Of a stretch of 64,000 nucleotides of DNA, positions 20,060 through 46,086 are shown in pieces (position 1 is the first letter of the stretch; each line of letters begins with the position of its first letter). A program made the translations under genes and the position numbers. The DNA lies in the NCBI RefSeq assembly GCF_000412185.1, contig NZ_ASJA01000005.1, positions 62,001-126,000 of the forward strand, given 5' to 3'. The stretch is from Euryhalocaulis caribicus (GTDB lineage: Bacteria; Pseudomonadota; Alphaproteobacteria; Caulobacterales; Maricaulaceae). Below the pieces are notes generated by a model. It did not search any database. It was not told where the DNA came from and worked only from the letters and a program-made list of their open reading frames with translations.

Positions 20060-21184
20060 TTATGGACGGAAAAGACTGAGGTCTGCGCGGGTTTCGGTGG
20101 CCTTGCCCTGCGCCATGTCGGCGGCGATGCGGCCGGCCATGGGGCCAGCGGTGAACCCGATCCAGGGCACGTAGGACACGTAATATCCCGGCGCCGGTTC
20201 GCCGATAATCGGCATCCAGCTGGCGTTGCCGTTCACGAACGCCGCCCATGTGCGGATCAGGTTCAGCGAACCGAGATCGGGCACCGCGCTCAGCGCCACC
20301 CCCAGATTGCGCGCCAATGAATCCGGATTGACGACCGGGCGCCCCTGGCTGTCCAGGTCGGCTTCCCAGCCGCCGCCAATCAACACGGTCCCCAGCGGGG
20401 TCTGTTTCAGGGTCAGCTTCTGACCGGCGGAATAGACCAGGTGATGGATGAAAGGTTCGGCGGGTTCGGTCACGCTCAGCTGGATCGGGAATTTCTGGAC
20501 ATCCAGACGCATGCCCAGCATTTCGGATATGTCGGAGACCGCCGCGCCGGCCGCATTGATCAGATGGCGCGTCCGGAACACGTCATGGTCTGTATGGACG
20601 GCGTACTGGCCGCCCTCCCGTTCGATATGCCTGACGCGTACGCCGCGCCGTATATCCGCCCCGTTGCGCGCGGCGGACCGCGCGAAGGCGGGGCCGCTGA
20701 TCAGGGGATTGGCCTTGCCTTCTCCGGCGCAGAACAACCCGCCCGCCAGCCGGGTCGAGAGATAAGGCATGCGGTCCCGCAGGTCCGCGGGGCTGAGGAT
20801 TTCGGGGTCCAGCCCGGCCGCGCGCTCGATCCGCGCCTTGCGGTCCAGGTCGCGCATCTGCGCGTCCGTATCCGCAATCAGGATTCCGCCCGGCGTGCGG
20901 ATTTCCAAGTCTTCTCCGGTTTCTTCGCCCGCGCGCTCCCATAGCGCGATGGAATCCTGCAAGAGCGGGATGATCGCGGAAAAGCGCCGCGCCCAGTCAT
21001 CGCCAAGTTCCATGAAGGGATCATGGGGAATCTGGAGATGCAGGCTTCCTGCGTTGAAGCCCGATGCGGCGCTGTTCAGATCCGCCTGTTCCAGCAGCAG
21101 CGAAGGGACGCCGTCCAGCGCCAGATAATGCGCCGCGGCGCTGCCGGTCAGCCCGCCGCCAATGATGATGACGTCGTATGTCAT
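20060..21184 (-). CDS. DAO-family FAD oxidoreductase, small subunit of opine-oxidase-like enzyme
   Basis: Flavoenzyme of the D-amino acid/glycine/sarcosine oxidase fold, 374 residues. FAD motif VIIIGGGLTGSAAAHYL at the N-terminus, substrate-domain mark SVTEPAEPFIHH, and the C-terminal FAD segment WIGFTAGPMAGRIAADMA. It resembles the B subunit of opine oxidases, HcnC and proline dehydrogenase beta subunits, and should pair with the [2Fe-2S]/FAD subunit at 15246-16961. The genes are split around the ABC importer rather than adjacent. ATG 21184 has no clear ribosome site. The promoter region holds GTTCGC words at 21227-21253 also found near the aminotransferase. Confidence 0.85.
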   Translation of the reverse strand: MTYDVIIIGGGLTGSAAAHYLALDGVPSLLLEQADLNSAASGFNAGSLHLQIPHDPFMELGDDWARRFSAIIPLLQDSIALWERAGEETGEDLEIRTPGGILIADTDAQMRDLDRKARIERAAGLDPEILSPADLRDRMPYLSTRLAGGLFCAGEGKANPLISGPAFARSAARNGADIRRGVRVRHIEREGGQYAVHTDHDVFRTRHLINAAGAAVSDISEMLGMRLDVQKFPIQLSVTEPAEPFIHHLVYSAGQKLTLKQTPLGTVLIGGGWEADLDSQGRPVVNPDSLARNLGVALSAVPDLGSLNLIRTWAAFVNGNASWMPIIGEPAPGYYVSYVPWIGFTAGPMAGRIAADMAQGKATETRADLSLFRP

Positions 21185-21226
21185 GGAGAATGGAAAATTA
21201 GAGATCCGGGGGCTGATTGTTCCAAA

Positions 21227-21253
21227 ATGTTCGCTATGTTAACGAAAGTTCGC
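21227..21253. promoter_or_regulatory. Candidate IclR operator, site 4
   Basis: ATGTTCGCTAT (21227-21237), identical to a word at 11841-11851, is followed by GTTAACGAAAGTTCGC (21238-21253), which keeps one perfect GTTCGC half of the palindrome. It lies between the divergent DAO oxidase and old yellow enzyme genes. Confidence 0.4.
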
Positions 21254-21322
21254 AAAATCCAATAGCGCGCCCGTGAACTATTTTTCAGTCCTTCGCGGGC
21301 GCGAACCATTCAAGGAGACGAC

Positions 21323-22444
21323 GTGGAAAAGCCCGGTAACAACGAAACAATTCCGCCGCTGTTTCAACCTATTCAGGTGCGCGGGACAAGTTTCCGCAAC
21401 CGGGTTTTTCTGTCGCCGATGTGCCAGTACGCCTCCGATGAAGGCGCGCCGACGCCGTGGCATTCGGCGCACCATTCGCGTTTCGCGCTGGGTGGTCTTG
21501 GCGGCGCCATGGTCGAGTCGACGGGCGTCACGCGCGATGGCCGCATCACCCCGGTCTGTATGGGCCTCTGGAACGAGACTCAGGAGAAGGGGCTGTCCGC
21601 GATTGCCGATATCTATCACGCGCAGGGCGTGCCGGTTGGCATCCAGTTGTCGCACAGCGGCCGCAAGGGAAGCTCCACCCCGCCCGCTGAAGGCGGAAAA
21701 CCATTGTCCAGCGCCGGGCCGGAGCAGGCCTGGGAAACGGTCGCGCCCAGCGCCATTCCGCTGCGCGATGGCTGGCCAACGCCAAAGGCGCTCACCGAAG
21801 CGGAAATCGAGGACCTGATTCAGGCTTTCGTCGACGCTGCGAAGCGGGCGATCCGCGCCGGGTTCGACTATGTCGAGATCCACGGTGCGCACGGCTATCT
21901 GATCCACAGCTTCATGTCCCCGCTGGCCAATCAGCGAACCGATCGCTGGGGCGGCGACCTTGAAGGCCGGATGCGCTTCCCGCTGGAAATCGTCAAAGCC
22001 GTCCGCAAGGTCATCCCGGAAAACATGCCGCTTTTCTATCGCGCATCGGTGGTGGACGGTCTGGATGGCGGGCTGGCCGCCGACGATACAGTGTTGCTGG
22101 CGCAGCGCCTGAAGGCGGCCGGCGTGGACGTGATCGACTGTTCGTCCGGCGGCATTACCGGCGCCTCCGGAAAGTCATTTTCCGAACCCTATCCGGGTTA
22201 TCTGGTGGATTATTCCGCACAGGTGAAGCGGGAGGCGGAAATCCTGACCATGGCGGTGGGCGTGATCGTCTCGGCGGAAAAGGCCAATGACGTCATCGCC
22301 TCGGGCGAGGCGGATTTCGTCGCCATCGCGCGGCATCATCTCTACGACCCGTCCTTTGCCTATCACGCGGCTGAAGAGCTGGGGCATCCCGATCCCGAGA
22401 GCCTGCTGCCGGACTCATACGGGATGGTTCTCAGAGCACGCTAA
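21323..22444 (+). CDS. Old yellow enzyme family NAD(P)H:flavin oxidoreductase (YqjM-like)
   Basis: FMN-containing ene-reductase that reduces activated C=C bonds or demethylates amines. TIM-barrel marks: SPMCQYASDEG with the YqjM-type Cys and Tyr, IQLSHSGRKG, the substrate-binding HGAHGYLIHSFMSPLANQRTD, and VGVIVSAEKANDVI near the phosphate site. GTG 21323 has a perfect AAGGAG 5 bases upstream, so I accept GTG. 373 residues is normal for the subfamily. It is divergent from the DAO-type oxidase and is followed 80 bases later by a MocR regulator. Its role in the block may be reduction of an unsaturated intermediate or N-demethylation. Confidence 0.9.
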   Translation: MEKPGNNETIPPLFQPIQVRGTSFRNRVFLSPMCQYASDEGAPTPWHSAHHSRFALGGLGGAMVESTGVTRDGRITPVCMGLWNETQEKGLSAIADIYHAQGVPVGIQLSHSGRKGSSTPPAEGGKPLSSAGPEQAWETVAPSAIPLRDGWPTPKALTEAEIEDLIQAFVDAAKRAIRAGFDYVEIHGAHGYLIHSFMSPLANQRTDRWGGDLEGRMRFPLEIVKAVRKVIPENMPLFYRASVVDGLDGGLAADDTVLLAQRLKAAGVDVIDCSSGGITGASGKSFSEPYPGYLVDYSAQVKREAEILTMAVGVIVSAEKANDVIASGEADFVAIARHHLYDPSFAYHAAEELGHPDPESLLPDSYGMVLRAR

Positions 22445-22524
22445 ACTCAAACCATAGGGGAGACGCTTTCGCGCTTGCCTGAGGGCAATGTCCCGACCTT
22501 TGCGGCGGGCGTTGTTTTCGGTCT

Positions 22525-24387
22525 ATGGAATCGGCCATGTCGGAACGCTCCCGGCGCGCTGGCGCGCCGCCGCTTTTCTTTCTTGATCCGCAGGCCGGGC
22601 TCAGCCTGCAGGCGCAATTGCGCCGGCAGCTTGTGGCCGCGATCGAGGCAGGCGTGTTTCCGCCGGGCGGACGCTTGCCCTCATCACGGGCGCTGGCGAG
22701 CAATCTGGGCGTTTCGCGCAATACGGTTTTCCTGACTTACCAGCAGCTGATCGCGGAAGGTCATCTGGCCGCCCGCACGCGCAGCGGGGTCTATGTCAGC
22801 GACGAGACGCGGCGTTATCGCGCCGGGCACATTCCGGTGGCCGGACGCGGCGCGGCGGCCGAGCCCTCCACGCTGGCGGCGCGGATGGGGGCGCGCATGC
22901 CTTCGGAACGCGCCTTCCGTTGCCCGCCCGACTGGCAGACCCATCCCTATCCCTTCATCGAGGGGCGCTTTGACCGGTCGCTGTTCCCGGTGGCGGAATG
23001 GCGGGAAGCCAGCCGTCTGGCGCTGGCCGTTCAGGAGGTCGAGCAGTGGTCGGTCGATTCCGGCGAGACCGATGACGAGATGCTGATCGAGGAGATCCGT
23101 ACCAAGCTGCTGCCCCGCCGCGGCATTCAGGCGGGAAGAGATGAAATCCTGATCACCGTGGGCGAGCAGCAGGCGCTGCATCTGGCGGCGGAGCTGTTCC
23201 TGCGGCGCGGCCTGACTGCGGCGATGGAGGAGCCGGGCCTGCCGGAAATCGCCGAGCTGTTCCAGCTGCGCGATGCGCGGGTGATGCGCCAGCCGGTCGA
23301 TAATGGCGGCCTGGTCGTGGATGAGCGCCTGGACGATTGCGATCTTGTGCATGTCACGCCGTCGCGCCAGCGGCCCACGGCCGTCACCATGCCGGTGGAC
23401 CGCCGCCGCGCGCTTCTGGACCGGGCGCGCGAGAAGGATTTCATCATCATCGAGGATGATTTCGAGAATGAGGTGACGTTCCTGGGCAAGCCCGCGCCGG
23501 CGCTCCGCGCGATGGAGGGCGGCGAACGGGTGGTCTATGTCGCCAGTCTTTCCAAGGTATTGGCGCCGGGCGTTCGGCTGGGTTTCATGACGGCGCCGCC
23601 GGAGGTCATCGCTGAGGCGCGCCGCCTGCGCGATCTGATGACGCGCCGTCCCCCGCCCAATAATCAGCGCGCCGCGGCGCATTTCCTGTCTCTGGGCCAT
23701 TACGACGCCATGGTTATGCGGCTGGGGCGGGAGTTCGAGGCGCGTCTTCTGGCCCTGCGCGATGCGCTGAATCATTATCTGCCGCAATCGCTGGCGCACG
23801 CCCTGCCGCAATCGGTGGACATGGCCCCGGTGACCGGCGGCACGACCGTCTGGGTGCGCGGGCCGGAGGGTCTGAACGCGGAAACGCTGGCGCATGCGGC
23901 GGCGGCGCGCGGGGTGCTGATCGAACCGGCGAGCGATTATTATGCGGGCGGAAACGTGCCGCAGAATGTCTTTCGCATGGGGGTGACCAGCATCCCGGCG
24001 GAGCGCATCCGCAAGGGCGTTGCGCTGCTGGCCGAAACCATGAGGGAGCTGACGGGCGATCATGCTGAAATCGCCGGTCCCGAAACCCTTGAGGGCGAGT
24101 CGATCATCAAGGCGCTGGGCGGGGCGACGCTGCTCTACAAGACGGTTTATGGCGAGCCGTGCACGATCGAGCTACATGAAGGCGGCGCGATGACCGGGCG
24201 CGCGGGCTATGCCAGCGAGGACCGGGATGAGGGCCGCTGGTGGGTCGAAAACGACCTATGGTTCCGCCAGTGGAAGCATTGGGCCTACGGGGAACCGGCG
24301 GGTTACCGCCTGCAAATCGAGGGTGAACGCCTGTTTTACCTCAATGAGGAAGGCCGGCGCGTCGACTCCGCCATTCTGGCGCCATAG
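22525..24387 (+). CDS. MocR/PdxR-type GntR regulator with aminotransferase domain and C-terminal extension
   Basis: Regulator with a GntR winged helix (about residues 25-85; RLPSSRALASNLGVSRNTVF) fused to a fold-type I aminotransferase domain (about 130-515) that binds PLP through the Lys in SLSKVLAPGVRLG; IIEDDFENEV is the usual family segment (family: EDDYDSEF). MocR proteins are normally about 450-500 residues; this one has 620. Residues about 523-620 form an extra domain with many Trp and Gly (GRWWVENDLWFRQWKHWAYG) that I do not recognise with certainty. The start may instead be ATG 22537; neither has a good ribosome site. It may control the old yellow enzyme upstream or the amidase and TonB receptor downstream. 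Confidence 0.85.
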   Translation: MESAMSERSRRAGAPPLFFLDPQAGLSLQAQLRRQLVAAIEAGVFPPGGRLPSSRALASNLGVSRNTVFLTYQQLIAEGHLAARTRSGVYVSDETRRYRAGHIPVAGRGAAAEPSTLAARMGARMPSERAFRCPPDWQTHPYPFIEGRFDRSLFPVAEWREASRLALAVQEVEQWSVDSGETDDEMLIEEIRTKLLPRRGIQAGRDEILITVGEQQALHLAAELFLRRGLTAAMEEPGLPEIAELFQLRDARVMRQPVDNGGLVVDERLDDCDLVHVTPSRQRPTAVTMPVDRRRALLDRAREKDFIIIEDDFENEVTFLGKPAPALRAMEGGERVVYVASLSKVLAPGVRLGFMTAPPEVIAEARRLRDLMTRRPPPNNQRAAAHFLSLGHYDAMVMRLGREFEARLLALRDALNHYLPQSLAHALPQSVDMAPVTGGTTVWVRGPEGLNAETLAHAAAARGVLIEPASDYYAGGNVPQNVFRMGVTSIPAERIRKGVALLAETMRELTGDHAEIAGPETLEGESIIKALGGATLLYKTVYGEPCTIELHEGGAMTGRAGYASEDRDEGRWWVENDLWFRQWKHWAYGEPAGYRLQIEGERLFYLNEEGRRVDSAILAP

Positions 24388-31591: not shown

Positions 31592-32802
31592 CTGAAACAA
31601 ACCTGCCGTCCCCGTCCAGCCGGCTGCTGCCCACCGCGCCCCCGGACGGGCTGATCGCCGCCGCGCTGCTGGCCTTTCTGGCGACGGCGGGACTGTTCTA
31701 CGTGAATATCATGGCCGCCATTGTTGACGGTCTGGTCGCGGGGCTGGGGCTGACCGACAGCCAGGCCGGGAATATCGGCGCGGTGAACATCTATGGCGCC
31801 GCGCTGGGGGCGCTTATGGCGGTGCTGGTGGTCAAGCGTGCGCCGTGGCGGCCGCTGGCCGTTGCCTGTCTCATGGCGCTGATCGCAATTGATCTGGCTT
31901 CGACGCTCATAAGTTCCGGCGACCTGTTACTGATCGTGCGGCTGGCGCACGGGATCATTGGCGGGCTTCTGGTCGGGACCGGGTTTGCCGTGATCGCGCG
32001 GACGAAGAATCCGGACCGGACCTTCGGCATGTTGCTGTTCGTGCAGTTCGGCCTTGGCGGGCTGGGCGTCATGACGCTGCCCCGGCTGGTGCCGGTCTAT
32101 GGCGCGCAGGCGCTGTTCATAGCGCTGGCGCTGTTCAGCCTTGCGACCCTGATCATGGTGCCGTTTTTGGCGAAATATCCGCCGGAGCGGGGAGAGAAAG
32201 CGCAAGTCTCCGATGCACGGATCGCGTGGCTGCCGCTCAGCCTGAATCTGGCGGGCATCTTTTTCTTTCAGGCCGCGAACATGGCGCTGCTGGCCTATGT
32301 CATCCGGCTGGGCATCGATTACGGACTGGACCGGAACTATGTCAGCCTGGCGCTGGGTCTGGCCACATGGGTGGCGCTGGCCGGGCCGCTGGTTGTCATG
32401 GTGCTGGGCCTCAAGTTCGGGCGCTTCTGGCCGCTGGCCGCCGGCATGGCTTTGACGCTGGCCGGAATCGGGCTGTTCCATCTCAGCGGCAATCCGGTTG
32501 CCTATATGGTGGCCAATTGCTGCACCGGCATCACCTGGGGAATGGTCATCGCCTATCTCTTCGGGATGAGCGCCCAGTTCGACAAGGCGGGGCGCACCGC
32601 CGCGCTGGGCGGGTTCGTCTCCAAGATGGGTCTGGCCAGCGGGCCGTTTGCCGCCGGTTACCTTCTGGGGCACGGCGGCGGCTTTTCTGGCCTCATAAAT
32701 TTCACGTTTCTGGGTCTCGCGCTCAGCGCGGTCTTCATGCTTATTCCGGCGCGTGCGCTGGATCGCGCGCGACGCCAGACGCCAAACCTTTCAGGAGACT
32801 GA
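31588..32802 (+). CDS. Major facilitator superfamily transporter
   Basis: Inner-membrane transporter of 404 residues with about twelve hydrophobic segments; the loop after helix 2 is short and the linker between halves is LAKYPPERGEKAQVSD. ATG 31588 overlaps the upstream stop (ATGA). By position in the operon it should move the substrate or product of the serine hydrolase and aminotransferase. I cannot assign a subfamily; a sugar- or amine-type transporter is equally possible. Confidence 0.85.
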   Translation: MTETNLPSPSSRLLPTAPPDGLIAAALLAFLATAGLFYVNIMAAIVDGLVAGLGLTDSQAGNIGAVNIYGAALGALMAVLVVKRAPWRPLAVACLMALIAIDLASTLISSGDLLLIVRLAHGIIGGLLVGTGFAVIARTKNPDRTFGMLLFVQFGLGGLGVMTLPRLVPVYGAQALFIALALFSLATLIMVPFLAKYPPERGEKAQVSDARIAWLPLSLNLAGIFFFQAANMALLAYVIRLGIDYGLDRNYVSLALGLATWVALAGPLVVMVLGLKFGRFWPLAAGMALTLAGIGLFHLSGNPVAYMVANCCTGITWGMVIAYLFGMSAQFDKAGRTAALGGFVSKMGLASGPFAAGYLLGHGGGFSGLINFTFLGLALSAVFMLIPARALDRARRQTPNLSGD

Positions 32803-32803
32803 C

Positions 32804-34161
32804 ATGACCGCCATTCCCAATTCGATCGAGGCGCGGCACATCGCCTCGGTCCTGCACCCGGCCACCAATTTCAAGGCCCTGAACGCCGACGGTCCGCTGG
32901 TCATGACGCAGGGCAGGGGCGTTTTCGTAAAGGACAATCAGGGCAAGGAATATATCGAGGGGCTGGCCGGCCTCTGGTGCACGTCGCTGGGTCACGGCGT
33001 GAAGGAGCTGGCCGAGGCGGCGCGCCAGCAGATGGAAACGGTCGCCTATACCCACATGTTCGGCGGACGCAGCCATGAACCGGCGATCAACCTGGCGGAG
33101 AAACTGAAGGAGTTGTCGCCGCTGGACACCGGCAAGGTCTTGTTCGGCTGCTCCGGCTCTGACGCCAACGACACGCAGATCAAGCTGATCCGCTATTACA
33201 ATAATGCGGTCGGCCGGCCCGAGAAAAAGAAGATCATCAGCCGCAAGAAGGGCTATCACGGGGTCACGCTGGCCAGCGCCAGCCTGACCGGTCTGCCGGT
33301 CAATCACGCCCTTTTCGATCTGCCGATGGACGGCGTCCTGCACACCGAAACCCCGCACCATTACCGCAACGCCGAACCGGGCGAGAGCGAAGAGGATTAC
33401 GCGGCGCGCCTGGCCGGGCAGCTGGAAGAGATGATCCTGAGCGAGGGTCCGGAGACCGTCGCCGCTTTCATTGCCGAGCCGGTGATGGGGGCGGGGGCGT
33501 AATCACGCCGCCGAAGACCTATTTCCAGCGCGTGAAGGAAGTGCTGGATCGTCACGACATCATTTTCATCGATGATGAAGTGATCTGCGGGTTCGGACGT
33601 ACGGGGGAGACGTTCGGCGCGGTGACCTATGGCATGCAGGCCGACACGATGACGCTCGCCAAGGGGCTGTCCTCCGCCTACATGCCGATCAGCGCGGTTC
33701 TGGTCCCTGACTGGATGTATGAGGCGATGATCGAGCCGAGCGCGGCCAATGGCGCGTTCGGCCACGGCTTCACCTATTCCGGCCACCCGGTCAGCTGTGC
33801 GGTGGCGCTGAAGACGATCGAGCTGATGGAAGAATGGGCGGTGATGGACCATGTCCGCGCGCTGGCCCCGAAATTCCAGGCGCGGCTGCGCGGGTTTTCC
33901 GATCATCCGCTGGTGGGCGAGGCGCGCGGCGTCGGCCTGGTCGGCGCGCTGGAGCTGGTGGCGGACAAGGCGGCGAAAACCCCCTTCGATCCGAAACAGG
34001 GCGTCGGCATGGCCTGTTACAAGGCGTGTATGGAAGAAGGGCTGATCATCCGGGCGATCGGCGATTCCATCGCCTTCTGCCCGCCGCTGGTGATAACCGA
34101 AGACGAGATGGAAGAAATGTTTGCCCGCTTCGGACGCGCGCTGGACCGGGTGACCGTATAG
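32804..34161 (+). pseudogene. Class III aminotransferase broken by a single-base frameshift
   Basis: Homologue of the intact aminotransferase at 10304-11692. ATG 32804 has AGGAG 8 bases upstream, and the frame reads through [20 protein letters not shown] and AEPVMGAG, then hits TAA at 33500-33502. The rest ([29 protein letters not shown], given here only as the region 33523-33605, then LAKGLSSAY with the PLP lysine) continues in another frame to 34161. Adding one G to the run at 33493-33497 restores GAGGVITPP, matching the paralogue. With it the protein would be 452 residues. Either a true recent mutation or a homopolymer sequencing error. Confidence 0.85.
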
Positions 34162-34175
34162 CGCGCGCCAGGCCT

Positions 34176-35102
34176 TCAGTCTCCGGAGGCGGCGGCGCGG
34201 TCCCTGATGCGCAGAACTTCTATCTCGGCGGGCCAGAAGCCGAGCGGGCTGGATTCGACGATGTCGATCAGGATGGTCTCCGCCTCGGCGTCCTGACCGT
34301 CAAAGACCAGCTGTATGGCGTGGGCGAAACGCTGTAACGCGCCGCTTCCCGCATCCTCCGGCGACAGCGCGCCCTGCAGGATTTTCAGGCCTTCGTAATA
34401 GGCGTGGTTCTCGATCAGCTCCAGATCGGCCGGGACGGCGTCCACGACGGCCGCGGCCTTATCGGCGCGGCCGAGCTTCATCAAGGCGATGTAACGCCAG
34501 TAGGCGACCGGCACGACCAGATCGTCCTTATAGCACATGATGGGCGTATCGAGAGCGGCTTGCATGCCGGCGTTCATCTGCTCGAAATCGCCCGTCGCGA
34601 AGCTTGTCTGCGCCAGATAGTAATGAAGGTTGGAGCGATACGTGCCGAGCGGTTGTGCGCGGGAATTTATGATGCCGTCGGGTTCGAAACTGTCCGGCAC
34701 GCCCTCCATCAGGGCGAGCGCCTCGCGGTAATCGGCGACAGAGGCCTCGAACTGCCGGCTGCGGGCGAGGTGGCGGCCCCGGAAACGTCGCAGTTTATAG
34801 CTCTCCGGAAACTGTTCCAGCCCTTCGGAGAATACCGCGACAGCCTCTTCATAACGGCCCAGATAACCGAGGCGGCGGCCCAGCCAGATAAAGGAATCCT
34901 CCCGATCGGGCGCGATTTCCATGCGCGCACGGGCGATCTCAAGATCCGTCTCCAGACGTTCCTGGACCTCCGCCGGGAAACCGGGGTCGCGCAGGGCGGT
35001 GCCCAGAAGAGTCTGGCCCTCGGCTTGTGCGCTGTGGGCGGAGTCCGCGGGCGCGGCGATGAGGGCGCTGGCGGCGAGTGCGAGGAGGACAAGACGTTTC
35101 AT
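34176..35102 (-). CDS. Exported TPR protein of unknown function (first paralogue)
   Basis: 308 residues; signal peptide 1-26 (hydrophobic, ending AHSAQA) and tetratricopeptide-like helices, for example WLGRRLGYLGRYEEAVAVFS. No catalytic motif seen. It is clearly related to the neighbour at 35190-36179: both contain the same pattern of LGY/SYxGxYxEAVxxxSxGxExFPxSxKLRR. A terminator lies between the two genes, so this copy is expressed at a lower level or from its own promoter. ATG 35102 has AGGAA 5-6 bases upstream. Possibly a periplasmic scaffold in the local catabolic system. Confidence 0.7.
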   Translation of the reverse strand: MKRLVLLALAASALIAAPADSAHSAQAEGQTLLGTALRDPGFPAEVQERLETDLEIARARMEIAPDREDSFIWLGRRLGYLGRYEEAVAVFSEGLEQFPESYKLRRFRGRHLARSRQFEASVADYREALALMEGVPDSFEPDGIINSRAQPLGTYRSNLHYYLAQTSFATGDFEQMNAGMQAALDTPIMCYKDDLVVPVAYWRYIALMKLGRADKAAAVVDAVPADLELIENHAYYEGLKILQGALSPEDAGSGALQRFAHAIQLVFDGQDAEAETILIDIVESSPLGFWPAEIEVLRIRDRAAASGD

Positions 35103-35189: not shown

Positions 35190-36179
35190 CTAGGGAGTTT
35201 CTCCGGGGTAGAGATCACGCCAGTCCGCTTCAGACTGAATACGGGCAAAATAGCTCCAGCCATCGACATTGATGGAGCGGCGGAACCATTCCTTCGCTTC
35301 TTCGCGCTGGCCGTCGAAGAGATAGAAATTGGCCAGAGTGAAAGCGGTGGAGGAGGCGGTGCCGGAGGCGTTGGAGAACGCCTTGCCCGTGTCGACATTG
35401 CTGAAGAAGGAACCGGGTTCGCGGTGCCCCTTGAACAGCTGGATGCCGTCGAAATAGTAGTTGCTTTCGATATTATCGCTCAGCTCCGCCAGCGCCATGT
35501 CATAGCCGTTCAGAAGCTCCAGCGCGGCGTCGAATTCGCCTGCACGGCCAAGCGAGATATAGGTCCAGTAAACGCCCGCCGTGATGCCCGGCGCGTCATT
35601 GACCCAGCGCGAAACGTCCAGCGAACGTTCAAACCATTTGGCGGCCTCGCTGTATTCGCCTTTGGCGAAATAGGCCTGGCCAAGATGGTAGTAGAGATAG
35701 AACTGGACGACGTCCGGCGTGCTCGGGAAATAGTCCGGGCCGAGCTTTTCGCGCTCCAGCGGCTTGCCTTCATACAGCTCCGCGGACCGCAGGCCCTCTT
35801 CGATAGACTTGTCGAACTGGCGCAGGGTGAAATAGCGGTGCGCGCGATGACGGCGCAGCTTGGCCGAGTCGGGGAATTTCTCGATTCCCTTGGAATAGAT
35901 GTCGACCGCTTCCTTGTAATAGCCCTGATAGGAAAGCACGCGGCCGTACCAGGTGGCGGTGTCCGGCGTGATTTCGGCGTCATAGGCGGCCTTCGCGTCG
36001 GCGGTGACGCGGGCGAAGGTTTCCGCATCGGTGAGGTTTTTGGAGGCGCTGGCCTCGGAATGAAGCTTTTCGCCGAACAGCGAATCCGTCTGATAGGTGT
36101 CCCCTTGCGGCTGGGCAAACGCCGCCGCGCTGAGGCACGCCGACAGGGCGGCGATGCTGAGTGTTTTCAGGACTGACAT
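35190..36179 (-). CDS. Exported TPR protein of unknown function (second paralogue)
   Basis: 329 residues with a signal peptide (about residues 1-22, ending AAAFAQ) and several TPR-like repeats (VLSYQGYYKEAVDIYSKGIEKF shortened here; YYHLGQAYFAKGEYSEAAKW). Periplasmic by prediction. ATG 36179 has AAGGAAGG just upstream; the frame extends 42 codons back into the aldehyde dehydrogenase gene without support. It starts 29 bases after that gene's stop, so they share an operon. Related to the gene at 34176-35102 by tandem duplication. Function unknown. Confidence 0.75.
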   Translation of the reverse strand: MSVLKTLSIAALSACLSAAAFAQPQGDTYQTDSLFGEKLHSEASASKNLTDAETFARVTADAKAAYDAEITPDTATWYGRVLSYQGYYKEAVDIYSKGIEKFPDSAKLRRHRAHRYFTLRQFDKSIEEGLRSAELYEGKPLEREKLGPDYFPSTPDVVQFYLYYHLGQAYFAKGEYSEAAKWFERSLDVSRWVNDAPGITAGVYWTYISLGRAGEFDAALELLNGYDMALAELSDNIESNYYFDGIQLFKGHREPGSFFSNVDTGKAFSNASGTASSTAFTLANFYLFDGQREEAKEWFRRSINVDGWSYFARIQSEADWRDLYPGETP

Positions 36180-36208: not shown

Positions 36209-37789
36209 TCAGGCGGCGCTGGCGCCGAATTTGAGCCCCTGGGCGAGATTGAGTTGCGAGGAGTAGTTGATGGTGTTGGTGGAGCGGCGCATGTAATTCT
36301 TCCACGTATCCGAACCCGATGCGCGGCCGCCGCCCGTATCCTTTTCACCGCCGAAAGCGCCGCCGATTTCCGCGCCGCTGGTGCCGATATTGACGTTGGC
36401 GATGCCGCAGTCGCTGCCGGCATGGGAGAGGAAAAGCTCCGTCTCCCGCATGTCGGTGGAGAAGATCGACGAGGACAGCCCCTGAGGCGCCGCGTTGTTG
36501 AGGGCGATGGCTTCTTCAAGGTCGCGATATTTCATCACGTAGAGGATTGGCGCGAAGGTCTCCGTCAGGACGATCGGAGTCTGGCCGGGCATGGCGGCGA
36601 TGGCCGGCCGCGCATAAAACGCGCCGGGAAACGCATCCTCCAGAACCCGTTCCCCGCCCCAGATCTGGCCGCCCTGCTCGCGGGCCGCGTCCAGCGCGGC
36701 CTGCATGCCCTCGAACGCGGCCTGGTCGATGAGCGGGCCGACATGGGCGCTCTCGTCAAGCGGCGATCCAACGCGGAGCTGGCCGTAGCCCTGCCGCATG
36801 CGGTCAAGAAATTCATCGTGAATGTCTTCGTGGACGATAAGGCGCCGCATGGTGGTGCAACGCTGTCCGGCGGTGCCGGCCGCGCCGAACACGCAGCCTT
36901 CAATCGCCAGATCCATGTCCGCATTGGGGGTGACGATGGCGGCGTTATTGCCGCCGAGTTCAAGAATGGAGCGGCCAAGCCGCGCCGCCACGCGGCCGGC
37001 CACGTCGCGCCCCATCGTGGTGGAGCCGGTGGCGCTGATCACCGCGATGCGACGGTCATCAGCCAGCACGCGGCCGATGGCGCCATCCCCCAGCATGACC
37101 TGTGAAAGATTGGCAGGCGCGTCCTCGAAACGATTGATCACCTGGTCAAGAAGGCCGCCGCACGCCAGCGCCGTAAGCGGCGCTTTCTCGGAGGGTTTCC
37201 AGATGGCGGCGTTGCCACAGACCAGCGCGACCATAGTGCCCCAGGACCAGACGGCGGCCGGGAAATTGAACGCCGAGATCTGGGCGAAGACGCCGACCGG
37301 ATGCCAGGCCTCCGCCATGCGGTGCCCCGGGCGCTCACAGGCGATCTGCAGGCCGAAAAGCTGCCGCGACAGGCCGACGGCGTATTCACAGATATCGATG
37401 ACTTCCTGAATTTCTCCGCGCGCTTCGGCCAGCGATTTCCCGCAATCAATGGAGAGAATCCGCGAAAGCGGTTCCTTATTGTCCCGCACCAGGTCGCCAT
37501 ATTGGCGGATCAGCTCTCCGCGCCGCGGCGCGGGAGTCTCCCGCCACTCAAGAAAGGCGGTCTGGGCGCGCTTGATGGCTTCGTCCGCCATGGCCGGCGT
37601 CGCCCGGCGGAAGCTGGCCAGCTTCGAACCATCGATCGGTGACACGGCGATCAGCGTGCCTTCCTGCTCCGCAGGCGGCTTCAGGCCGATTCCTTCAAAG
37701 AGTTCGGTTATCTCCGCGGCAAGGCCGCTTTCCTCCATTGAGGCCGGATCGTTCGCGTTATCGTGTTTCAGTCCTGCGCGAATTGTCAT
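36209..37789 (-). CDS. ALDH7-family aldehyde dehydrogenase (aminoadipate-semialdehyde dehydrogenase type)
   Basis: NAD-dependent oxidation of alpha-aminoadipate semialdehyde/piperideine-6-carboxylate or a similar omega-oxo amino acid. ALDH7 hallmarks are SILELGGNNAAIV, TAGQRCTTMRR with catalytic Cys311, and the C-terminal GGEKDTGGGRASGSDTWKNY. ATG 37789 gives 526 residues, slightly longer than the usual 500-510; ATG 37738 would give 509. Neither has a strong ribosome site. In lysine or cadaverine catabolism this enzyme acts after an omega-aminotransferase; one such gene (frameshifted) lies convergently at 32804. Divergent from the XRE-cupin regulator, with motif sites between them. Confidence 0.9.
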   Translation of the reverse strand: MTIRAGLKHDNANDPASMEESGLAAEITELFEGIGLKPPAEQEGTLIAVSPIDGSKLASFRRATPAMADEAIKRAQTAFLEWRETPAPRRGELIRQYGDLVRDNKEPLSRILSIDCGKSLAEARGEIQEVIDICEYAVGLSRQLFGLQIACERPGHRMAEAWHPVGVFAQISAFNFPAAVWSWGTMVALVCGNAAIWKPSEKAPLTALACGGLLDQVINRFEDAPANLSQVMLGDGAIGRVLADDRRIAVISATGSTTMGRDVAGRVAARLGRSILELGGNNAAIVTPNADMDLAIEGCVFGAAGTAGQRCTTMRRLIVHEDIHDEFLDRMRQGYGQLRVGSPLDESAHVGPLIDQAAFEGMQAALDAAREQGGQIWGGERVLEDAFPGAFYARPAIAAMPGQTPIVLTETFAPILYVMKYRDLEEAIALNNAAPQGLSSSIFSTDMRETELFLSHAGSDCGIANVNIGTSGAEIGGAFGGEKDTGGGRASGSDTWKNYMRRSTNTINYSSQLNLAQGLKFGASAA

Positions 37790-38118
37790 AATCGGTCGGC
37801 GTCCCCCGCATCTTGTTTGTGAAATCCGGCGCAGCCAGGCCGGAGTGATTGTAAAAGCCGGGCGGGCCATGATCGGTGGACCCCGGACCGCCGCTTGATC
37901 GAAGAAAATTTCGTATAGGCAAAAAATTTTATCGTCAACCGAGCGCGGGCGTTGCGCCTGGCCGCGGCCGTTGCCGGCGAACCCGGCATGACGTTGAAAA
38001 AAGAGATTTGGACTTGCGCAGATTGACGGGATCGTCTTACAGGGCGAACCTGTCGTATCGGAAAATTTATTTTTCCTTTGTCATAACAAAATCATCCCAG
38101 CGGACCGGACCCTGCCAG
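37790..38118. promoter_or_regulatory. Divergent regulatory region between ALDH7 and XRE-cupin genes
   Basis: 329 bases without a gene. It holds TTTCGTATAGG at 37909-37919 (reverse complement CCTATACGAAA), a related TGTCGTATCGG at 38051-38061, and an overlapping palindrome GGAAAATTTATTTTTCC at 38060-38076. The A/T-rich parts contrast with the GC-rich genes and probably contain both promoters. These are the likely autoregulatory sites of the XRE-cupin protein. Confidence 0.55.
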
Positions 38119-38742
38119 ATGTCGGACGATTTCGAAGATTTCACCAAGCTATTGTCGAGCGCGCGCGGCAGCAGTTTCAAACGCCAAAGCACCGCTGACC
38201 TGGGTGAACGGGTCCGCGCCATACGCCGGTCGAAAAACTGGACGCTGGAGGAGGCGGCCCGCCGGACAGGTCTGGCCGCATCAACGCTTTCAAAGATCGA
38301 AAATGACCATATGTCGCCCACTTTCGACGCGGTTCAGCGTCTGGCCGAAGGTCTTGAGATCGATATCACGGAATTGTTTGCCTCTTCGGCCGGCGAACGG
38401 CCCAGCGGCCGGCGCAGCGTGACCCGCGCCGGCGATGGACGCGGCATGGAAACGCCGGTTTACGCACACAAGCTTCTGGCCTCCGAGCTGGTGCAGAAAC
38501 GGATTCTGCCGTTTGTCACGCGCATCAAGGCCCGCTCTTTCGACGACTTCAAGGAGCTGAAGGGGCACAAGGGCGAAGAATTCGTCTATGTCCTTGAGGG
38601 CGAGGTATTGTTCTATACCGAGCATTATGAGCCGGAACGGCTTGGTCCGGGCGATTCCATCTATTTCGATAGCGGCATGCACCATGGCTGCATTTCGGTG
38701 AGCGAAGAAGACGCGGTCGTCCTCTGGATCAATACCGGCTAA
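38119..38742 (+). CDS. XRE-family regulator with C-terminal cupin domain
   Basis: 207 residues: helix-turn-helix (about 29-84; LGERVRAIRRSKNWTLEEAARRTG shortened in the middle, LAASTLSKIEND) followed by a small cupin barrel (about 130-205; GEEFVYVLEGEVLFYTEHYE, LGPGDSIYFDSGMHHG). Members such as PuuR control amine and amino acid catabolism after binding a small ligand in the cupin. ATG 38119 lacks a clear Shine-Dalgarno. Repeated CCTAWACGAAA sites occur at its own promoter and upstream of the peptidase-like and TonB receptor genes that follow, so it is likely the local regulator. Confidence 0.9.
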   Translation: MSDDFEDFTKLLSSARGSSFKRQSTADLGERVRAIRRSKNWTLEEAARRTGLAASTLSKIENDHMSPTFDAVQRLAEGLEIDITELFASSAGERPSGRRSVTRAGDGRGMETPVYAHKLLASELVQKRILPFVTRIKARSFDDFKELKGHKGEEFVYVLEGEVLFYTEHYEPERLGPGDSIYFDSGMHHGCISVSEEDAVVLWINTG

Positions 38743-38775
38743 TCCGCCCCTTGCATCGTCTTCCTGTTTCGGAAT

Positions 38776-38799
38776 AGATTTTTCCTAAACGAAAAATCT
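38776..38799. promoter_or_regulatory. Candidate XRE-cupin operator upstream of M19-like gene
   Basis: Perfect 9-bp inverted repeat AGATTTTTC-N6-GAAAAATCT containing CCTAAACGAAA at 38784-38794. The same word recurs at 39962 and, with one change, at 37909. It lies 18 bases before the start codon, a repressor-like position. Confidence 0.55.
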
Positions 38800-38817
38800 T
38801 TCATTCAGGAGGGGCGC

Positions 38818-39891
38818 ATGTCTCCAGATCGTCGAACATTTCTTGCGGGCGCATTGGCAACCGGGGGCATGGCGCTCAGCGGCATAGGGCGCGCCGCGGC
38901 GCAAGGCGCCGCCGGACCTCTGATCTTCGATGCGATGGGGGAGATGCGTCTGGAGTATGACGGCGACCTTATCAAACAGATCAAGGCCAGCGGCCTGAAC
39001 GCGATCACGGTGACCCTGACCGATCCGAAGGTGAGCGGGCAGCGGGCGACCGATGAAGCGATTGATGCGGTGCTGGCGCATGACCAGCATATCAAGGCGC
39101 ACCCGGAATGGTTCCTGAAGGCGACGCGCGTTGAAGACATTGAGCGCGCGCGGGCCGCGGGGCAGATCGCCGTTTTCTATCTCTACCAGAACAGCGTTCA
39201 GTTCCAGAAGGATCTCGACCTTGTGGACATGTTCTATTCGCTCGGCGTCCGCTCCAGCCAGATCACTTATAACTACCAGAACTGGGCGGGCGCGGGCTGC
39301 AAGGAAAAGCGCGATGGCGGCCTGAGCCGTTTTGGCGGCGAACTTGTTGAAAAAATGAATGAAACCGGGATGTTGATCGATCTTTCCCACTCAGGAATGA
39401 CGACAATGGCCGATACGATTGCGGTTTCGAAATCACCGGTCTGCATCTCCCACACCGGGATCATGAGCGTTTTCGAGAATGAGCGGAACACAACCGATGA
39501 AAACCTTCGCGCCGTTGCGGAAAACGGTGGCTTTGTCGGCGTTTGCCAGATTCGTCCCTTCCTGACGCACGGCAGAGAAGGCGCGCTGGAGGATTATTTC
39601 CGTCATATCGACCAGGCGGTGAAGGTGGCCGGGGTCGAACATGTGGCGATCGGCAGCGACAGGGATCATCGCGTCATAACCATGACGGACGAATATCTTG
39701 CGGAGCTGAAAGCCGAGGAAGGCGAGAATTTCAATCCGGACGAGTGGCCGCTCTTCATCGACGAACTGAACGGGCCGCGCCGTATGGAGGTTATCCTGGC
39801 CGGCCTCGAGAAGCGGGGCTATGCCCAGGCCGACATTGAAAAGATCATGGGGGGCAATGTTCTGCGGGTCTATCGCGACGTGGTCGGATAG
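38818..39891 (+). CDS. Tat-exported peptidase M19 (membrane dipeptidase)-like protein with altered metal site
   Basis: 357 residues of the renal/membrane dipeptidase family, normally a di-zinc enzyme. A twin-arginine signal (DRRTFLAG, then hydrophobic ATGGMALSG) indicates folded export. Family blocks are present: LGVRSSQITYNYQN, GLSRFGGELVEKMNETGMLIDLSHS shortened here to DLSHSGMTT, CISHTG, ERNTTDENL and IGSDRDH. The two later His ligands and the Asp are kept, but the N-terminal HxD is M-G-E (FDAMGEM) and the bridging Glu region reads LYQNS instead of EGG. It may bind one metal or act on a different substrate. AGGAGGGG lies before ATG 38818. Followed by terminator and TonB receptor. Confidence 0.82.
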   Translation: MSPDRRTFLAGALATGGMALSGIGRAAAQGAAGPLIFDAMGEMRLEYDGDLIKQIKASGLNAITVTLTDPKVSGQRATDEAIDAVLAHDQHIKAHPEWFLKATRVEDIERARAAGQIAVFYLYQNSVQFQKDLDLVDMFYSLGVRSSQITYNYQNWAGAGCKEKRDGGLSRFGGELVEKMNETGMLIDLSHSGMTTMADTIAVSKSPVCISHTGIMSVFENERNTTDENLRAVAENGGFVGVCQIRPFLTHGREGALEDYFRHIDQAVKVAGVEHVAIGSDRDHRVITMTDEYLAELKAEEGENFNPDEWPLFIDELNGPRRMEVILAGLEKRGYAQADIEKIMGGNVLRVYRDVVG

Positions 39892-39919
39892 CGCCGGGAT
39901 TGCCAATTTGCAGCGTTTA

Positions 39920-39947
39920 AAGGCCGGCGTCAGCGCCGGCCTTTTTG
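39920..39947 (+). terminator. Intrinsic terminator after M19-like gene
   Basis: 10-bp stem AAGGCCGGCG (39920-39929) with CGCCGGCCTT (39934-39943), loop TCAG, followed by TTTTT. Confidence 0.88.
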
Positions 39948-39961
39948 TTTCAAGGGTTTAT

Positions 39962-40049
39962 CCTAAACGAAACCAAACTGTCCGATCATAAAATTTCCTA
40001 CTTGTGTCAATTTTCAAACTTTTTTATTATAGGAAAATATATTTCGTAG
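39962..40049. promoter_or_regulatory. TonB receptor promoter region with two candidate XRE-cupin sites
   Basis: CCTAAACGAAA at 39962-39972, identical to the site at 38784, and TAGGAAAATATATTTCGTA at 40030-40048, whose ends match the same motif in reverse. The A/T-rich stretch between 39960 and 40050 probably holds the promoter of the receptor at 40101. Confidence 0.5.
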
Positions 40050-40100: not shown

Positions 40101-42572
<2,472 letters not shown>

Positions 42573-43958: not shown

Positions 43959-45899
43959 TTAGGGTTCGTCGCGCTGGACGGTCTCGTCGGCATAGATCGC
44001 CGCCGTGGCGGGAAGCGTGTCCGTCACCGCGCCGCGATACATGCCCTCGGTATTCATCGAAAAAGCGATCCGGCCGTTTCCGTCGATGGCGATCAGCCCG
44101 CCATCGCCGCCCAGCGCGCCAATGGAGGCAATCGCGCCATCGGCCGCCTGCTGAATGGTCTCGCCCTTCCAGGCGACGCGGTCGCAGACCTGCCGGCCCG
44201 CGCTTTCCCGGATGAAATATTCGCCGGTGCCCGTGCCCGATACGGCGCATTTGCCGTCCGCGGCGTAGGTGCCGGCCCCGATGATCGGGGAGTCGCCAAT
44301 GCGGCCCCATTCCTTGCCGGTCAGCCCGCCCGTGGATGTGGCGGCGGCGAGGTGGCCGTGCGTATCGCGCGCCACTGCGCCGACGGTGCCGAAGCGGTGC
44401 GTCGGGTCCAGGGCGGCCTGCTGGTCGCGCTTCCATTCAAGGTGCTGCTGCCAGCGGTGCTCGGTCCGGAAATAGGCCGGGTCGACCTGTTCGATATTCT
44501 TCAACCGCGCAAACTCGTCCGCGCCGTCGCCGGACAGCAGCACATGGCGCGATTGCTCCATGACCGCGCGGGCAAGCGTGATCGGGTTGCGCGTGGTGCT
44601 GACCGCGGCGACCGCGCCGGCCTGCAGCGTGGCGCCGTCCATGATGGCCGCGTCCAGCTGGTTGCGGCCCTCCGCGTCGAACACCGCGCCGCGGCCGGCA
44701 TTGAACAGCGGATCGTCTTCCAGCACGCGAAGCGTGGCTTCCACCGCATCCAGGCTCGACCCGCCGTCTTTCAGAATCGCCGCGCCGGTATTCAGGGCGG
44801 CTTCAAGGCTCGCGCGATAGGCGCGATCCGTCTCAGGGGTCAGGTCGCCGCGCGCGATAACGCCGGAGCCGCCATGAATGGCCAGCGTCCAGCCCGCATC
44901 CGGGGCAGCCGGCACGCCCGACAATTCGCCGTTGTCCACGCTGGCGACGCCGGAGAACGCCGGGTTGCTGACCTGCATCGTATTGAAATCAATTGTGCTT
45001 TCCGGGCCAATCCCGGTTAGGCGGACCGCCCTCCAGTTGAGCGCGCCATCAGGGCCAAAGGCCGGCCCGCCCTCCGGCTGCACCAGCCAGGCATGTCCAT
45101 CGCTGAGCGTGTAAAGGCGCCCCGTCCCGTCGGCCTCGATGGTCAGCGCGCTGTCCTCGTCGATGCCCAGCCCGACCGCCTCCGGATCGGTGTCTGAGCG
45201 GGCCTGCGCCAGGAAGGCGACAAGACGGCCAAGACGGTCACGCTCGGTAAAATGCGTGTCGGTTATGACGTGTTTCAGGAAGGGCATTTCCAGAAAATCA
45301 CGCACCAGCGTCACTTTCGGCCCGTGCGGGTCGGCGAGCGCCTCCGCGGAATCGACCGCTTCCTCCGCCATCGCGCCGTAGCCGGCGCCGCCCAGAATCG
45401 CCAGTCCCGCGCTGGTGCCGCCAATGGGGCGTCCCGCGGCGACATGAGCGTTCAGGGCTTCGGAGACCGGCGTGTCTTTCCAGAAGCGAACATAGTTCGA
45501 CTGGTCGCCGCCGGCGATGAAAACGCCATCGGCATGGGAAAGGATTTCCTCCACGCGCGGATCGGACGCGGCTTTGCGGTCCGAGAAGACAAGCGTCTGG
45601 ACAGAGGCCACGCCGCCGATTTCGTTCAGGATCCAGTCGCCGTCCGCGCCGTCGGAAGAGGCGCGAATGATGACAATATGTCCGTTGCCGGCTTTGCCCG
45701 CAAACCAGCGCCACGCGTCCGGGCTCCAGTCCGAACCGCCGATCAGCATCAGGCCCAGAGATGGGGAAGCCGGGGCGGGCGCTGAAACGTCGCCGCTGAC
45801 GTAATAGCGGTAGCCTTGAGCCGTGTCCGTTTCGGCGCGGGCCTGGCCCGAACCTGTTGCGAGCATCAGCCCGGCGACAAGAATTGTTATCCAGCGCAT
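43959..45899 (-). CDS. Exported fusion of cyanophycinase-like domain and isoaspartyl peptidase/asparaginase
   Basis: 646 residues. A signal peptide (1-22, ending ARA) is followed by a cyanophycinase/peptidase S51-like domain (about 45-300) with FIAGGDQSNYV, nucleophile Ser163 in GGTSAG and DTHFTERDRLGRL containing the His. Then comes an Ntn hydrolase domain of the plant-type asparaginase/isoaspartyl peptidase class (about 336-640) with LAIHGGSG, LFNAGRGAVF and autocleavage/nucleophile Thr505 in HRFGTVGAVA, plus IGAGTYA. Cyanophycinase frees beta-Asp-Arg dipeptides and isoaspartyl peptidase splits them, so both steps could occur on one exported protein. ATG 45899 follows AGGGGGAT. Both active sites look intact. 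Confidence 0.87.
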   Translation of the reverse strand: MRWITILVAGLMLATGSGQARAETDTAQGYRYYVSGDVSAPAPASPSLGLMLIGGSDWSPDAWRWFAGKAGNGHIVIIRASSDGADGDWILNEIGGVASVQTLVFSDRKAASDPRVEEILSHADGVFIAGGDQSNYVRFWKDTPVSEALNAHVAAGRPIGGTSAGLAILGGAGYGAMAEEAVDSAEALADPHGPKVTLVRDFLEMPFLKHVITDTHFTERDRLGRLVAFLAQARSDTDPEAVGLGIDEDSALTIEADGTGRLYTLSDGHAWLVQPEGGPAFGPDGALNWRAVRLTGIGPESTIDFNTMQVSNPAFSGVASVDNGELSGVPAAPDAGWTLAIHGGSGVIARGDLTPETDRAYRASLEAALNTGAAILKDGGSSLDAVEATLRVLEDDPLFNAGRGAVFDAEGRNQLDAAIMDGATLQAGAVAAVSTTRNPITLARAVMEQSRHVLLSGDGADEFARLKNIEQVDPAYFRTEHRWQQHLEWKRDQQAALDPTHRFGTVGAVARDTHGHLAAATSTGGLTGKEWGRIGDSPIIGAGTYAADGKCAVSGTGTGEYFIRESAGRQVCDRVAWKGETIQQAADGAIASIGALGGDGGLIAIDGNGRIAFSMNTEGMYRGAVTDTLPATAAIYADETVQRDEP

Positions 45900-46086
45900 C
45901 TGATTATCCCCCTCTATCCGGCCCCGGGCGCATTTTCCGCTCAGCCGGAAACGCCGCTTGTGAAAGGCATTCTGGCGCATAACCGGATGGTCGTCAGATT
46001 GCAGTTTTGCAGATATTAAGAACGAAAATTGTCTTTATTTCTGCGTCCGGGGCGTGTTCTGTCGCCGAACCGGGAAGAGAGGACAA

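Follow-up and report, generated by a model that had tools for sequence, protein, structure and literature searches.

The locus lies in a 64-kb stretch of Euryhalocaulis caribicus DNA, the whole of which was analysed and is referred to here as the window. It comprises two divergent sets of genes (Table 1): on one strand a gene for an ALDH7 protein followed by two genes for TPR proteins, the first of which is probably in an operon with ALDH7, and on the other strand the genes for an XRE-cupin regulator, an M19-family protein and a TonB-dependent receptor. The ALDH7 protein scores 754.9 bits against the curated cut-off of 730 for L-piperidine-6-carboxylate dehydrogenase (NF050084), and its relatives in the PDB include 6rtr (Pcd) and antiquitin. 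The regulator combines an N-terminal XRE-type HTH (HTH_3, 3.2e-14) with a C-terminal cupin (Cupin_2, 9.9e-15), both above the curated cut-off, while the TonB-dependent receptor is 65-67% identical to its orthologs in three relatives. The M19-family protein is recovered with 265.5 bits (Peptidase_M19 cut-off 26), and the solved structure closest to it is 2i5g. Canonical M19 dipeptidases use an HxD motif and a Glu as metal ligands; in the alignment these ligands are replaced by DAMGE[ML]R and a QN pair in all four orthologs. The occurrence of DAMGE[ML]R in place of HxD suggests that this protein and its orthologs form a non-canonical, exported M19 subfamily.

Table 1. Genes, predicted operators and promoter elements of the locus (window coordinates)
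Feature	Coordinates	Strand	Remarks
Second TPR protein	34176..35102	-	Same direction as first TPR gene; profile match and relatives
TPR protein, signal-peptide-like N-terminus	35190..36176	-	Order and orientation kept in three relatives
ALDH7, L-piperidine-6-carboxylate dehydrogenase family	36209..37870	-	NF050084, Pfam Aldedh; start may be 37789
Predicted operator, ALDH7 promoter	37909..37922	-	TTGCCTATACGAAA on minus strand; same place in three relatives as TTTCCGATAGGAAA
Probable -35 hexamer TTGACG, ALDH7 promoter	37933..37938	-	Exactly 10 bp from operator; promoter role inferred
Predicted operator near XRE-cupin gene	38051..38064		TGTCGTATCGGAAA; no separate counterpart in three relatives
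XRE-cupin transcriptional regulator, 207 aa	38119..38742	+	HTH_3 and Cupin_2
Predicted operator, M19 promoter	38781..38794		TTTCCTAAACGAAA; within 9-bp inverted repeat 38776-38799; conserved in three relatives
M19-family protein, Tat-like signal, without usual HxD	38818..39891	+	Peptidase_M19, 8e-79
GC-rich terminator-like hairpin 3' of M19	39919..39944	+	11 pairs, 8 of them G-C, then T-rich tail
Predicted upstream operator, TonB gene	39959..39972		TATCCTAAACGAAA
Predicted second, weaker operator, TonB gene	40023..40036		TTTATTATAGGAAA; overlaps probable -10 TATTAT, 40025-40030
TonB-dependent receptor	40101..42572	+	Pfam plug and barrel; longer frame from 40050

An earlier note on this DNA had drawn attention to a recurring motif, CCTAWACGAAA, and its copies are found where that note placed them, namely CCTATACGAAA at 37909-37919 (minus strand), CCTAAACGAAA at 38784-38794 (plus strand) and a third at 39962-39972 (plus strand). 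The perfect 9-bp inverted repeat reported at 38776 is also present, with AGATTTTTC (38776-38784) and GAAAAATCT (38791-38799) on either side of CTAAAC, as is the degenerate copy at 38051 (TGTCGTATCGGAAA, 38051-38064). The degenerate copy near the TonB gene exists too, but the position given for it, 40030-40048, has to be corrected to 40023-40036 (TTTATTATAGGAAA). With up to one mismatch the motif has five matches in the 64-kb window against 0.70 expected, a count that none of 100 shuffles reaches. The genome-wide scan proposed in the note, run over 3,323,095 bases in 39 contigs, yields exactly three perfect occurrences, all within one 2-kb stretch, and the reversed motif, used as a control, has no match in the whole genome. 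Nine weaker matches in the genome, six of them inside ORFs of at least 150 aa (L005, L008, L100, L106, L019, L018) and three outside such ORFs (L009, L014, L016), are not counted as targets, as no reason for including them was seen.

When the relatives are compared, the true unit is seen to be a 14-bp palindrome, TTTCC[TG]AT[AC]GGAAA, of which CCTAWACGAAA is an off-centre part. The search pattern TTTCCKATMGGAAA was taken from the relatives; when up to two mismatches are allowed it has exactly four matches in the 64-kb window, all of them in this locus (37909, 38051, 38781 and 40023), against 0.60 expected and with none of 100 shuffles reaching four. The site at 39959-39972 has three mismatches to the pattern. 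In counts symmetrised over 22 sites from eight genomes, the positions that stand out most are the outer T, the third T, the fourth C and the inner A. Six forms of the palindrome, searched as text, had no match in the literature searched, which likewise yielded no paper on the locus or on its XRE-cupin regulator. With regard to promoters, the spacing of TTGACG, 10 bp and operator is seen at the ALDH promoter in four of four genomes. The sigma-70 promoters of the window are weak: a promoter scan gave none above threshold at the operator sites, and the hexamers named for the window were read by eye, including the TATTAT before the TonB gene, which scores below the scanner's threshold. In a consensus scan, Glycocaulis has promoters directly adjoining its M19 and TonB operators and Oceanicaulis has one adjoining its TonB operator, with about one promoter per region expected by chance.

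The gene order TPR-TPR-ALDH7, XRE, M19, TonB is kept in Glycocaulis albus (L059), in Oceanicaulis sp. HLUCCA04 (L060) and in a genome from the same genus group (L088), with 55-69% identity of the block proteins across these loci. In the three relatives (G014, G028 and G224), TTTCCKATMGGAAA with at most one mismatch has three sites each among the matches listed, all in the block: one between ALDH7 and XRE, one before M19 and one before TonB. The comparison with orthologous promoters that the note had called for thus finds the motif conserved at the ALDH/XRE, M19 and TonB promoters of all three, including G224, which was not among the loci from which the pattern was derived. Apart from the shared one on the ALDH side, none of these relatives has a separate site for the regulator gene. 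The ALDH7-M19-TonB block is rare in the family: orthologs of the M19 protein occur in 4 of 137 family genomes, and piperidine-6-carboxylate dehydrogenase in 7 of 136, four of which are the bearers of the block. Within the window's genus one further genome was searched, and it has no ortholog of the regulator.

Orthologs of the regulator are also found in four Kiloniella genomes (L070-L073), where they are 57-59% identical to it and belong to the same helix class. In the annotated Kiloniella locus (L072) the place of the ALDH7-M19-TonB set is taken by an AgcS-type amino acid carrier and a dihydrolipoyl dehydrogenase. As in the window, the palindrome occurs before both the regulator and a neighbour: all four genomes have one copy in front of the regulator gene and a second in the gap that follows it, ahead of the AgcS symporter gene. 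A broader survey covered 38 distinct homologs, the window's own included, with the site sought in the 300-odd bases upstream (L134 was dropped as a duplicate of L073, and L076, which matched in the HTH only, was left out). Each of the nine homologs of the helix class KIEND.MSPTF has an upstream site that scores at least 12/14. Of the 29 homologs with a different helix four have one (Fisher p 4e-6, without correction for descent), and among 727 random segments taken from these loci seven reach that score. As the HTH classes follow phylogeny, the nine are not nine independent events, and most of the positive loci had themselves served to build the consensus, with only G224 and G592 (L135, 12/14) standing outside the derivation. 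The close helix KIEHDQMSPTF (L136) is without a site (9/14), and the palindrome is mostly missing from the more distant homologs, which are 30-54% identical (4/29 at 12/14 or better). As far as these genomes go, the motif goes with the regulator and its HTH sequence while the adjoining genes change. A perfect TTTCCGATCGGAAA is also seen at L065:9469-9482 (G057:C3), close downstream of a far more distant XRE-cupin homolog (33% identical).

The earlier note had proposed that the motif at each promoter links the ALDH7, XRE-cupin, M19-like and TonB genes, and that the XRE-cupin protein is their natural regulator. Both proposals are supported by the conservation of the site at the promoters of the three relatives and by a motif that accompanies the regulator in Kiloniella and tracks its HTH sequence. 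Given that the palindrome occurs at every local promoter and is conserved at the same promoters of the relatives, it is very probably the landing site of the regulator. The sequences themselves show where the predicted sites lie, that these are unique in the genome and conserved at orthologous promoters, and that they occur together with the regulator and its HTH; the palindromic sites at its own and adjoining promoters and the small local target set are, at this same level, the marks of membership in the XRE-cupin regulators. In the available text of a study of Pseudomonas, such regulators are described as local inhibitors that bind palindromes near their own genes, with autoregulation suspected in some (PMC7901475). 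By analogy with this local inhibition via nearby palindromes, we consider it likely that the protein is a local, autoregulated repressor which binds the palindrome and controls ALDH7-TPR-TPR, itself, M19 and TonB until it is released by a ligand. On the model of PsdR, PauR and PuuR, a dimer of the regulator would bind the 14-bp palindrome at operators that coincide with or closely adjoin the -10/start region of four promoters, those of ALDH7-TPR-TPR, the regulator, the exported M19 protein and the TonB receptor, and would repress rather than activate all of them. A small molecule in the cupin pocket, probably a substrate or product of the uptake-and-processing set, would then lift the repression.

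Among characterized systems, PsdR of Pseudomonas aeruginosa (mdpA, dppA3), described in the available text as repressing a dipeptidase gene and a peptide-uptake gene (PMC10965056), shares with this locus the XRE-cupin architecture, palindromic sites, a regulator situated between two targets, and targets for peptide uptake and a dipeptidase (PMC7901475, PMC10965056). However, the targets of PsdR are a peptide-binding transport protein and a metallodipeptidase, whereas here they would be a TonB receptor, an unusual M19 protein and ALDH7. The PsdR site, TTAAGN5CTTAA, also differs from the palindrome of this locus; in the 64-kb window it has four matches with two mismatches against 3.99 expected, none of them in this locus. 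PuuR and PauR have the same architecture as well, and in their case the available text reports metabolite-released repression of catabolic genes (PMC7901475), but they serve polyamine use, whereas in this locus the motif is not linked to any polyamine gene. Beyond the analogy drawn in the earlier note, a specific likeness to PuuR finds no support, the regulator scoring 48.3 bits against the curated PuuR cut-off of 211 (NF007408). The regulator resembles PsdR, PauR and PuuR in general kind but belongs to none of them, and the locus is a further case of a well-known type of bacterial switch and involves no new principle.

The same genome codes for a second XRE-cupin protein (G000:C5:156838-157398, outside the window; L061), about 40% identical to the first; its gene is transcribed away from that of a second M19 protein, which also has the unusual QN pair. 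The most plausible form of the view that the palindrome is the operator of another regulator assigns it to this paralog, which has an M19 neighbour of its own and a promoter holding a similar palindrome, TTCCCGATTGGAAA (12/14). As TTCCCGATTGGAAA stands upstream of the paralog, cross-binding is possible. We nevertheless regard such an assignment as quite unlikely: the HTH of the paralog differs (KIEHDRLTLTYDK), its palindrome differs in the outer half-site, Kiloniella retains the motif next to orthologs of the window's regulator, and in G014 and G028, where paralogs of about 40% identity are present, the best motif matches listed are nevertheless only in this locus. Another suggestion is that the XRE-cupin protein binds here but activates, or both activates and represses. 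In this genome the TonB site at 39959-39972 is some way upstream of the probable promoter, in a position fit for activation; yet the other operators lie across or directly next to the -10/start region, and characterized XRE-cupin regulators are described in the available text as inhibitors (PMC7901475), which makes an activating role improbable. The overlap of the motif with the -10 region would also be expected of a mere recurring AT-rich promoter element with no dedicated regulator. To this we give hardly any credence, as the motif is palindromic, tracks the regulator's HTH and has its best matches limited to one locus in each of four genomes.

The flanks of some operators present an additional feature beside the proposed local repression. 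Complementary arms (7-9 of 9 positions) flank the M19 and TonB operators of the three relatives; the arm sequences vary between genomes and between the M19 and TonB sites while the complementarity is kept. The arms are missing at the divergent ALDH site and at both TonB sites of the window, which stand after the terminator-like hairpin, and the M19 site of the window is weakly extended, by five bases past the core, an extension not significant alone (832 of 5000 flank shuffles are as good). Conceivably, the operators at the internal promoters of XRE-M19-TonB were lengthened into palindromes with two purposes, serving in DNA as operators and in read-through RNA as hairpins. RNA reading through from the upstream gene would fold so that the ribosome-binding site, such as that of M19, is hidden, whereas transcripts begun at the promoter within the left arm would be without that arm and would be translated; a comparable masking in read-through RNA is described for T4 gene e in the available text of PMC3014915. 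The calculated exposure of the Shine-Dalgarno sequence is lower in read-through than in core-started RNA in four of four genomes (0.08 vs 0.23, 0.02 vs 0.40, 0.07 vs 0.29 and 0.23 vs 0.49), and shuffled 5' halves match the effect in 41, 6, 13 and 44 of 200 cases in the four genomes. In view of these modest folding controls, we hold the hairpin to be unlikely. The TonB sites of the three relatives have hairpin energies well below those of shuffles, which does not apply to the ALDH sites or to most Kiloniella sites. The presence of arms at one of four Kiloniella AgcS sites argues against a general need for them.

On the interpretation as a ligand-released local repressor, an uncharacterized XRE-cupin clade spanning Maricaulaceae and Kiloniella gains a specific predicted operator and target set, with the operator staying with the regulator's HTH though the gene neighbourhood changes. 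On the same reading, piperidine-6-carboxylate dehydrogenase would form a single testable nutrient system with the unusual exported M19 protein and the TonB receptor. Few family genomes carry that system (M19 in 4/137); the assignment is useful for annotation and opens the way to a ligand screen. With regard to the ligand, the assignment of ALDH7 points towards a compound derived from lysine or pipecolate. Beyond that assignment, the lysine- or amine-derived ligand envisaged in the earlier note finds no support: no lysine-6-aminotransferase scores above cut-off in any of the six genomes searched, and this genome has no saccharopine/lysine-dehydrogenase-type protein (PF03435).

Elsewhere in the window, the region 20060-24387 codes for a DAO-family oxidase, a candidate source of piperideine-6-carboxylate, with a GntR/aminotransferase (MocR-type) regulator nearby. 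At 43959-45980 a cyanophycinase-like (S51) domain is fused to a beta-aspartyl-peptidase/Asparaginase_2 domain, a fusion with no relative within the stretches analysed around the block in the three relatives. Finally, a class-III aminotransferase at 32753-34161 is seemingly split over two frames (32753-33502 and 33532-34161), while its homolog in L095 spans both halves in one frame, suggesting a frameshift, a pseudogene or an assembly error.
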